Assembly (NCBI RefSeq): GCF_000685275.1
Contig: NZ_ARYK01000001.1
Span: forward strand, 124,001 to 188,000
Source: Hyphomonas johnsonii MHS-2
GTDB lineage: Bacteria; Pseudomonadota; Alphaproteobacteria; Caulobacterales; Hyphomonadaceae
Length of the DNA: 64,000 nucleotides
Direction of reading: 5' to 3'
Shown here: piece by piece, positions 59,146 through 61,341 of the stretch
Position numbering within the stretch: position 1 is the stretch's first letter
Layout: each line of letters opens with the position of its first letter
The notes under the pieces: model-generated
The model's input: the letters and a program-made list of their open reading frames with translations, nothing else
Database searches by the model: none
What the model was told of the DNA's origin: nothing
Made by a program: the position numbers and the translations under genes

Positions 59146-59958
59146 CTAGAGGACTTCGAGCATTTCCTGAACCAGAGGGTGGCGGACGACGTCGATGCCC
59201 TGCAGGCGGATCACGGCGGCGCCGGCCAGTTTCTCGAGCCGCTCGGCGGCGTTGGCGAGGCCGGAGAATTCCGGCAACAGGTCGGTCTGGGCCGGGTCGC
59301 CGGTAATCACCATGGTCGAGTGCCAGCCGAGCCGGGTGAGCAGCATCTTGATCTGCGTATAGGTGCAGTTCTGCGCCTCATCGACGACGATGAAGGCATT
59401 GTTGAGCGTGCGCCCGCGCATGAAGCCGATGGGCGCGATCTCGATCACCCCTTCAGACAGCATGTGTTTCAGCTGGGCCGGCGAGAGCCGGTCGGACAGG
59501 GCGTCGTAGAGGGGCCGCAGGTAAGGCGCGAGCTTGTCCTCCATGGCGCCGGGCAGGAAGCCGAGTTGCTCGCCGGCTTCGACTGCGGGACGCGACAGGA
59601 TGATGCGGGCGACCTTGCCCTTCTGCAGGGCCTCGACCGCCTTGCAGATGGCAAGATAGGTCTTGCCGGTGCCCGCCGGGCCGAGGGCTGCGACAAGGGC
59701 ATGGGTCTCCATCGCCTTCATCAGCTGGGCCTGGTTCTCGGACCGGGGCTTGACGGTTTTCTGGTAGCGCTGGGTGCGGTCGGGCTCGTTGGAGGTGGAT
59801 TTTCGCTTTCGTGAATCAGCATCGTCAGGGTGCCAGCCGCGGCCTCCCTCGATGGCGTGGAGAAGGGGCGGCTGACCGCGATCGGCTTCCTGAATCCAGG
59901 CAGTGGCTTTCACCTCTGCTGCTGTTTTCATTCGCTTCGCGGCGTTGCGTTTACCCAT
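59146..59958 (-). CDS. PhoH-like ATPase
   Basis: The 270-aa protein has a Walker A GPAGTGKT (residues 93-100) and Walker B IVVDEAQN, with further PhoH motifs SRPAVEAGEQLGFLPG and GDPAQTDLLP. The N-terminal ~60 residues are basic and unconserved. PhoH-family proteins are cytoplasmic P-loop ATPases, with links to RNA metabolism. It is preceded by a structured leader bearing a terminator 26 bp before its ATG. AAGGAG lies before the start. Confidence 0.9.
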   Translation of the reverse strand: MGKRNAAKRMKTAAEVKATAWIQEADRGQPPLLHAIEGGRGWHPDDADSRKRKSTSNEPDRTQRYQKTVKPRSENQAQLMKAMETHALVAALGPAGTGKTYLAICKAVEALQKGKVARIILSRPAVEAGEQLGFLPGAMEDKLAPYLRPLYDALSDRLSPAQLKHMLSEGVIEIAPIGFMRGRTLNNAFIVVDEAQNCTYTQIKMLLTRLGWHSTMVITGDPAQTDLLPEFSGLANAAERLEKLAGAAVIRLQGIDVVRHPLVQEMLEVL

Positions 59959-59983
59959 GGGAGGACTCCTTGGTTCCAGGCAG

Positions 59984-60016
59984 AAAAAAAGCCGTCAGCA
60001 GGATTGCGGACGGCTT
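59984..60016 (-). terminator. Terminator in the leader of the PhoH-like gene
   Basis: On the minus strand AAGCCGTC - 12 nt - GACGGCTT forms an 8-bp stem followed by TTTTTTT. It sits directly upstream of the PhoH-like gene's ribosome binding site, and no annotated minus-strand gene lies upstream that it would close. It looks like an attenuator or the end of a small RNA. Confidence 0.75.
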
Positions 60017-60216
60017 GGCGAAAAACGGGGAAGGAAGGCTGGCCCGCCCTGTGGGCGGTGAGGCCGGTCCGGAAACACACGATTCCGGCGGCGAAGTGTG
60101 ACTGGGTCGTTCTATGACCGTCTCCACGTCCTGAACTCTGTTGTTGATTAAACCCTAACAGGGTTATCAAACCCTTTATCTGATATTCCGCAGGCGAAAC
60201 GAGAGGACGAATCATC

Positions 60217-60747
60217 ATGGCAATCTACCAGATAGGAGAGGCCCGCCCCACGCTGCCGGCAAGTGGAAACTTCTGGGTCGCCGAAAATGCCCAAGTAATG
60301 GGCAATGTGGTGCTCAAGGAAAATGCATCGGTCTGGTACGGCTCGGTCCTGCGCGGTGACAATGACCCGATCACGGTCGGCGAGAACTCCAACATCCAGG
60401 ATGGCAGCGTGCTGCACACGGATGTGGGGGCGCCGCTGACCATCGGCCGGGACGTGACGGTGGGGCATATGGTGATGCTGCACGGCTGTACGATCGGCGA
60501 CGAGACGCTGATCGGGATCGGCTCAACCATCCTGAACGGGGCGAAGATCGGGAAGAACTGCATCATCGGTGCGCATTCGCTGATCCCCGAAGGCAAGGAG
60601 ATTCCGGACAATTCGCTGGTAATGGGCGCTCCCGGGAAAGTCGTGAAGGCGCTGTCAGACCACCAGGTCCAGGTTATCAGGATGTCGGCAGTGCATTATG
60701 TCGAGAACTGGAAGAAGCACCGCGACCATGTCAGGCGCATCGACTGA
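60217..60747 (+). CDS. Gamma carbonic anhydrase family protein (hexapeptide repeat)
   Basis: The 176-aa left-handed beta-helix protein has successive hexapeptide repeats and the zinc-type residues of gamma carbonic anhydrase-like proteins: [14 protein letters not shown] (His), [13 protein letters not shown] (two His). The C-terminal helix (about 150-175) is typical. Members include YrdA and PaaY; carbonic anhydrase or thioesterase-like activity is possible but unproven. It starts at ATG 60217 and is convergent with the PilZ gene, 6 bp away. Confidence 0.93.
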
Positions 60748-60753
60748 GTCCCG

Positions 60754-61341
60754 TCAGCGGATATAGCGGATCGCGAAACTGGTCAGGGCGACGCGGATGA
60801 CTTCGCCGCGGACGTTGCCGGCGATCACGATGTCGCCGATCATCGGGGCAATGCCTTCGGCTTCGAAGCTTGCGCCGCTGAGGGAGATATCGAGAACGCG
60901 GCACTTCAGTTCCCGGCCGTCTTTGAGAATCAGGATGGCCGGGCCAGTTGCGGATGAACGGGGCGCGGCGCGCTCTTCATCGAGACCGAGCTGGTCCTTG
61001 TTGAGCAACCAGGTGAGGCGGTCGGCCAGCTTGTCACGCTTGTGTTCGGCGGTTCGGAACTGGACCGCGAAGCCGGTCGGCATCGGGCGAATGACGTTTG
61101 CGGCGACGCGGCCGAGATCGTCGAAATAGCAGACCACCGGTGCACCGGCCGGCGGGCGCATGTCCGATGCGATGAGCGCCCCGGAGCAGGAAATATTGAT
61201 CGTTACAAAGTCGTGGTCGTCGCTGGTAGCGTCGAGGAAGCGCCCGGCCAGCTGAAGGGGCACGCGCTTGAACAGGCGGCGATCCTTGTTGAGTCTCAAT
61301 AGCGGGCCATTATTGGCTGCGGTCCTTAGGGCAATTGTCAT
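60754..61341 (-). CDS. Tandem PilZ-domain protein
   Basis: The 195-aa protein has a first PilZ domain with both c-di-GMP motifs: RxxxR in RRLFKR and NxSxxG in TINISCSGAL. The second domain (from about residue 115) has DxSxxG in VLDISLSGASFE but no clear RxxxR, so it may not bind. It should act as a c-di-GMP receptor in the cytoplasm. ATG 61341 follows GGGAG. The EAL protein encoded at 50168 could supply the turnover side of the same second messenger. Confidence 0.88.
   Translation of the reverse strand: MTIALRTAANNGPLLRLNKDRRLFKRVPLQLAGRFLDATSDDHDFVTINISCSGALIASDMRPPAGAPVVCYFDDLGRVAANVIRPMPTGFAVQFRTAEHKRDKLADRLTWLLNKDQLGLDEERAAPRSSATGPAILILKDGRELKCRVLDISLSGASFEAEGIAPMIGDIVIAGNVRGEVIRVALTSFAIRYIR

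Follow-up and report, generated by a model that had tools for sequence, protein, structure and literature searches.

A conserved terminator inside a proline-rich leader reading frame suggests translation-sensing attenuation of phoH in a Hyphomonas-like genome and its relatives

The comparative data suggest that the leader of a phoH-like gene in a Hyphomonas-like genome probably functions as a translation-sensing transcription attenuator resembling that of pyrBI, in which an intrinsic terminator lies within a short, proline-rich open reading frame that ends on the start of phoH. Conservation of the terminator, the presence of the leader ORF, the maintenance of its frame and the overlap of its stop codon with phoH are supported by comparison of the leaders of relatives; we infer the promoter, translation of the ORF in this species, the control of read-through and a role for EF-P or proline supply.

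The window, i.e. the entire 64,000-nucleotide stretch of DNA that was analysed, belongs to a genome of 3.6 Mb (G000). From 400 confirmed relatives the 80 best were kept, and the closest named relatives in this set are H. oceanitis and H. chukchiensis. On the minus strand of the window, a gene for a PhoH-like protein of 270 amino acids (59146-59958; Pfam PF02562, E 3.4e-82) is preceded by a Shine-Dalgarno sequence AAGGAG (59966-59971) and a 5' gap of 258 nt (59959-60216) that reaches up to a divergent hexapeptide-repeat gene (60217-60747, plus strand). The argument of the earlier note that no upstream gene needs the terminator found in this gap is a fair one: the next gene is divergent and the closest same-strand ORF with a Pfam match upstream of phoH ends at 60754. 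PhoH is down under copper stress in Caulobacter (PMC8224329), in a passage of that paper that does not mention a leader.

The intrinsic terminator (minus strand, 59984-60016) consists of AAGCCGTC..GACGGCTT followed by seven T, with an 8-bp stem, an inner 3-bp stem and a hairpin energy of -16.1 kcal/mol; a simple terminator scan, with a loop limit (8 nt) smaller than the outer loop of the hairpin, missed it. Its last T lies 25 nt upstream of the phoH ATG, leaving no room for a separate promoter in between. Covariation analysis of the leader, which the earlier note had proposed, gave a consistent picture for the terminator: in 21 sequences of the Hyphomonas clades, 100% of cells are paired, ten pairs are always formed and three pairs vary on both sides. 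The wider comparison drew on these 80 relatives and on upstream DNA from five families of the order; at the level of the order 80 upstream regions (75 of them outside the window's family, f1) were taken from 283 matching genomes, and at the level of the class 20 of the 23 matches outside the order were sampled. Scored as a hairpin with a T-run 5-75 nt upstream of the phoH start, and with identical loci merged (8 loci, e.g. L047 with L041 and L206 with L089), a terminator precedes phoH at 60 of 61 f1 loci (the sole miss is L205, whose phoH start was placed too far upstream), at 36 of 36 f2 loci and 14 of 15 f4 loci, at 4 of 8 f3 loci and 0 of 12 f5 loci, and at 5 of 20 loci counted as unassigned to a family (L091-L111, among which L109 resembles the f2 locus L177, and L092, L098 and L101 are scored as misses with a terminator visible by eye). 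As a control, loci L032-L111 supplied 125 further candidate gene starts (ATG codons that have a Shine-Dalgarno-like stretch and 150 open codons, with duplicates retained), and a terminator was found at none of them. The spacing is likewise narrow: of the 125 terminator-bearing loci (unmerged), 118 have their last terminator T 15-40 nt from the phoH start, the median distance being 23 nt. Judged by this comparison, the terminator is more than a chance hairpin.

Beyond the order, a terminator-like hairpin is present in the last 140 nt before phoH in 11 of the 20 sampled loci and a GATTCG box, described below, in 8, with both in 1. Proline-containing ORFs that cross a terminator and reach the phoH start also appear in two loci of other orders, L258 and L262.

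The entire leader (59959-60216) contains, as the earlier note had drawn them, three stems on the minus strand, all of which are present: CCGGAA/TTCCGG (60069-60088), GGCC..CCGCCC/GGGCGG..GCC (60041-60065) and the terminator. The leader also folds better than shuffled sequences, with z -2.39 over 157 nt and z -2.17 over 258 nt; in each case, 5 of 200 shuffles folded equally well. A further small hairpin, GGTC..GACC, lies directly 3' of the ORF start (60105-60119), with 89% of cells paired and one pair altered on both sides among the 21 Hyphomonas-clade sequences. The stems other than the terminator differ from clade to clade; the GGGCGG stem is found mainly in the closest Hyphomonas clades, A-C. 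In an Rfam scan only a tRNA reaches the gathering threshold in the window, leaving the leader without a family, and nothing reaches the threshold in the phoH loci of nine relatives; the statement that no known riboswitch corresponds to the leader thus agrees with Rfam, in which there are sub-threshold matches only. The best of these is to RF02401 (ClpQY promoter; minus strand, 59956-60013; 26.2 of 42 bits) and perhaps merely reflects a hairpin, a U-run and a ribosome-binding site in like order. 6S RNA was considered and set aside, its near-threshold match (45.2 of 46.4 bits) lying elsewhere in the genome.

The earlier note had read the leader as an attenuator or a small RNA ending at a terminator just before the ribosome-binding site. 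This reading is supported in part, by a terminator that is conserved, covarying and tightly placed with no room for a promoter behind it; what had been missed is that a short ORF takes up much of the leader and runs through the terminator, so that part of the C-rich sequence consists of proline codons. In the window, this ORF comprises 58 codons from a GTG at 60127 (or from an ACG at 60121) and ends ...KESSHG* (minus strand, 59951-60127), as judged from its frame, codon score, Pro-Pro-X (PPX) codons and stop position, and it spans the terminator at 60016-59984. Its stop codon TAA (59953-59951) overlaps codons 2-3 of phoH. In 39 of 47 f1 leaders the last base of a TAA is at +8 relative to the phoH start (ATGGGTAA), in most f2 leaders, when read in the right frame, a TGA ends at +4 (ATGA) or +1 (TGATG), and in part of f4 the stop falls directly before the phoH ATG, so that the ORF stops at or close to the phoH start in most of 97 loci. 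This overlap is partly automatic, because the phoH start sequence itself supplies the stop. In the clade f3a, the leader ORF and phoH are fused into a single reading frame.

Many relatives have a Shine-Dalgarno-like stretch followed by a short frame that crosses the terminator. The start codon of the window is poor, being either a GTG 1 nt past AGGA or the ACG, at the position of which clades D, D2, E and F as well as L035 and L043 have an ATG. GTG is found in all members of clade A and a TTG two codons upstream in all members of clade B; four of the five members of clade C have only ACG and lack any usable in-frame start 5' of it, and in L219 and L220 a TGA follows directly after the GTG. Most Caulobacter start codons are reported to lack Shine-Dalgarno sites (PMC4117421), and the weak site of the window is therefore not fatal to translation of the ORF. 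Two loci of f2-g11 contain an additional stretch: in the last 100 nt before phoH, L244 carries tandem terminators within one open frame, the ORF being open through both and its peptide repeated, and in L241 the 3' part is extended and also open. In one clade (L093, L094, L096, L097, L100 and L102-L108) the T-run of the terminator is lost in most members, the ORF is in frame with phoH and the start-to-phoH lengths differ by multiples of three (ten measured).

Evidence that the ORF is a coding frame comes from its length changes and its codons. For these tests 102 of 161 upstream regions were listed and 97 used (the list does not cover the Ponticaulis-type clade, f5, most of f3 and some further regions, and L226, L194, L203, L195 and L103 were missed by the start patterns), and the statistics are guides rather than exact probabilities, given that the sequences share ancestry and that clades and start patterns were picked by eye. 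Of 27 length changes between the ORF start and phoH, 21 are multiples of three; in a control stretch reaching from the 5' box to the ORF start, this holds for 5 of 22 (Fisher p 1.4e-4). Without the fused clade f3a the count for the ORF is 18 of 24, and without f3a and the clades of less certain start it is 12 of 16 versus 3 of 14 (p 0.005). The main frame class of the respective clade is common to 89 of 97 sequences, the exceptions including L034-L036, L049, L055, L056, L211 and L228. Codon replacement scores in the ORF frame are positive for all 30 Hyphomonas-clade leaders (z 2.75; 0 of 300 column shuffles), for all 17 Henriciella-clade leaders (z 2.67; 0 of 300) and for the 17 leaders of clades A-C, which include the window (z 2.18; 8 of 300), and are negative in the other two frames. 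Over 12 smaller groups, Stouffer's z is 2.7 in the ORF frame versus -1.6 and 0.03 in the others. An open frame of 120 nt is in itself expected in about half of shuffled leaders.

Early codon tests were negative or weak, and codon-position substitutions anchored on the phoH ATG were flat (1158/1154/1222) with no coding signal, as were the counts made group by group. The test anchored on phoH was negative because the CU-tract close to the terminator carries one-base insertions and deletions that change the frame on their 3' side alone, and re-anchoring on the homologous ORF start reversed the verdict on coding. Even in the clade-wide sets, third codon positions change only approximately 15-20% more than the others (1384 versus 1173 and 1188 in clades A-C): the leader peptide is loosely constrained. 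The peptides can be aligned by eye within clades, with TVIERPSHTSPPES... in the window, TVITRPCHTPPPG... in clade B, MARLVPIFTSPPEA... in D2, MVPRPSLPGTPPGP... in Henriciella, MTAPRPSPPGSG... in f4 and VSLLAFRR...EPP...RPRPFLMPEWRL in f2; the leader peptide has no match in Pfam or NCBIfam.

Proline codons are a frequent trait of the peptide. In the window, the codons Ser-Pro-Pro-Glu (SPPE; minus strand, 60083-60094) form an in-frame PPX motif that is a candidate slow site for the ribosome, at which stalling may occur, and a second PPX (SPPT) begins at 60061. With X taken as P, G, E, D, T, S, A or N and the motif sought within codons 5-36, PPX is found in the ORF frame of 83 of 97 leaders and in the other two frames of 53 and 18 of 97. 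All 47 leaders of the f1 clades A-F have it; in two f2-g11 groups, one of which was scanned in the wrong frame, it is present in 0 of 11. Given that the first PPX of the window lies approximately 30 nt and the terminator approximately 105 nt into the ORF, a ribosome held at this PPX would leave the terminator hairpin free to form.

Combining these data, we suggest the following model. RNA polymerase would initiate near 60146 and a ribosome would start on the proline-rich leader peptide; a ribosome that keeps pace would cover the 5' arm of the terminator, allowing the polymerase to read through, and on finishing the leader it would end on the phoH start codon, where it could restart. If the leader is left untranslated, or if the ribosome is stalled at a PPX far upstream, the hairpin would form and an RNA of approximately 160 nt would be released. 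Stalling would in this way lower phoH expression, and the signal could be EF-P, proline or general translation capacity. Duplexes between upstream sequence and the 5' arm of the terminator are about as stable as in shuffled sequences (mean z per clade between -0.73 and 1.50, with 15 clades compared) and their positions are not shared across clades, i.e. no conserved antiterminator was found in these clades. This makes a switch of the trp type unlikely and leaves the pyrBI scheme, in which the ribosome masks the terminator, as the simplest remaining one.

Attenuators of the trp/his/ilv type share with the phoH leader a leader peptide and a terminator, but here no antiterminator alternative was found and the ORF does not stop before the terminator; moreover, a trp/his-type leader has a run of codons for the amino acid that its downstream operon makes, whereas the codons in question are for proline and phoH is not a proline biosynthesis gene. 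In E. coli, pyrL responds to UTP via polymerase pausing, and in Salmonella mgtL/mgtP a leader peptide rich in proline governs whether the gene behind it is transcribed, as part of an Mg2+ response and with other terminators; in the phoH leader, by contrast, the intrinsic terminator sits inside the ORF. It is this arrangement that is shared with E. coli pyrBI, in which the pyrL ORF likewise spans an intrinsic terminator and coupled translation should block termination, whereas the gene here is phoH and the peptide is proline-rich. Similar in design, too, is the reporter of Elgamal et al. (PMC5021804), in which, as here, proline stall codons lie 5' of an intrinsic terminator within one ORF. In that work, a PPPPPP stall before the pyrL terminator in E. 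coli cut expression 1.3-fold in the wild type and, in the absence of EF-P, 26- to 32-fold depending on the RNA polymerase background. That reporter was built, whereas the phoH leader is natural and conserved and has shorter PPX motifs.

The main alternative is that the leader encodes a trans-acting small RNA of approximately 160 nt with a C/U-rich anti-Shine-Dalgarno tract, the terminator being the end of the sRNA gene and phoH being transcribed by read-through. The strong and conserved terminator, a structured body with some covariation, a conserved 5' box and a CU-tract upstream of the terminator would all be expected of such an RNA, and similar sRNAs exist in Caulobacter: the alphaR8 RNAs SisA-D (PMC12559287) are, like the phoH leader, alphaproteobacterial, with a CU-rich stretch and a Rho-independent terminator. 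The single-stranded 10-mer of these RNAs, UUUCCUCCCU, is not conserved here, however, since even a looser form of it occurs in only 27 of 121 leaders and is absent from the window, and identity with alphaR8/SisA was rejected; in addition, sisA lies by another gene and the phoH leader has a coding frame, in which the C-rich stretches are proline codons. The tightly held distance from the terminator to the phoH start also speaks against a free-standing RNA, and so does genomic location. The family's 105 genomes include 98 with phoH and 61 in which a covariance model of the element, weak outside the window's genus, finds a match. Within the genus the element is found in 41 of 42 genomes (one of them, G054, with a match split over two contig ends), with the best match next to phoH in each of the 41; the remaining genome, G063, has no phoH match either. 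This constant association favors cis control, which on these sequence grounds is likelier than a free-standing small RNA. No convincing copy away from phoH was found in the 105 genomes of the family: weak second matches in G056 and G044 proved on reading the sequence to be the 3' end of another gene with its terminator, and that in G058 was judged unconvincing from its alignment. We therefore regard the sRNA reading as unlikely.

Alternatively, the ORF could encode a genuine small protein, e.g. a partner of PhoH, that is translationally coupled to phoH, with the terminator only setting the ratio of the products. The overlap of the ORF with the phoH start and its in-frame fusion in f3a would fit such a protein; its fast divergence, the failure to match Pfam or NCBIfam models and a C-terminal part that is dictated by the terminator do not, and we consider this reading very unlikely. 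Least likely, with only a slender chance of being correct, is an attenuator that senses through the RNA itself, by binding a small molecule or a protein such as the PhoH ATPase, without any role for translation. Stable stems that beat shuffled sequences are in line with it, as is a match of the PhoH protein to the PhoH2 RNA helicase model, which is weak (101.8 of 680 bits, far under the cut-off), but the leader has no Rfam family, the stems other than the terminator vary between clades, a conserved alternative pairing with the terminator arm was not found, and the signals of the ORF would be left unexplained.

Translation-sensing attenuation, as proposed here for phoH, would be a form of leader-peptide attenuation whose particular trait is a terminator that lies within the ORF. 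We tentatively go one step further, to a proposal that is possible rather than probable: that this is a natural attenuator reading the progress of the ribosome through proline-proline codons, that phoH is transcribed only if EF-P-assisted translation of the leader keeps up with the polymerase, and that the arrangement is spread through much of the order and perhaps beyond. A literature search over titles and the starts of abstracts turned up no account, for alphaproteobacteria, of a leader, an attenuator or an upstream ORF of phoH, and a search for Hyphomonas with sRNA and CtrA found nothing relevant. The word phoH is absent from the main text of seven papers on Caulobacter RNA and transcription, as far as this text was covered (PMC12559287, PMC11005374, PMC6237742, PMC5869019, PMC8959179, PMC4287350 and PMC4117421). 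If the proposal is true, the little-understood, helicase-like PhoH ATPase would gain a control circuit tied to translation, the synthetic polyproline-terminator reporter would have a natural counterpart, and the role of EF-P in transcription-translation coupling would become testable in Caulobacter-like bacteria.

Transcription of the leader is predicted to start from a -10-like element, GTTAGGGT (minus strand, 60152-60159), with a putative start at approximately 60146. All 47 f1 loci have the pattern [GC][CTG]TANNNT ahead of the 5' box, and in 11 loci inspected for its position the offset is -20 to -24. The box itself, GAGTTCAGG in the window and GATTCGGAG in relatives (60130-60138, approximately +8 of the putative start), may in f1 serve the leader ORF as its ribosome-binding site. 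GATTCG occurs at a similar place in f1, f2, f4 and part of f5, is changed in the window (GAGTTC) and in L033, and is missing from most loci of L091-L111 and f3. Recognition as a CcrM methylation site was rejected: the box almost invariably reads GATTCG, whereas a CcrM site would need only GANTC, and methylation alone therefore provides no explanation. In the f5 loci (L229-L240) GATTC(G) is kept in 9 of 12 and a terminator was found in 0 of 12; in these loci the box may have a role of its own at initiation.

A putative, degenerate CtrA-like site, TAAA-N7-ATAA (minus strand, 60164-60178), has 2 mismatches in the window. Several Henriciella loci have TTAA-N7-TTAA at this position, which is perfect in L070, L073 and L078, and a site with at most one mismatch is found in 23 of 47 f1 loci compared with 0 of 47 in the leader body. 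The best match lies 39-43 nt upstream of the 5' box (11 loci inspected). The site overlaps the core promoter at a nearly fixed place and in the window would start near -33. Full CtrA sites have been described to activate at -39 and to repress at -14 (PMC4287350). Based on the placement of these sites, phoH may be cell-cycle regulated in the family to which the window belongs.
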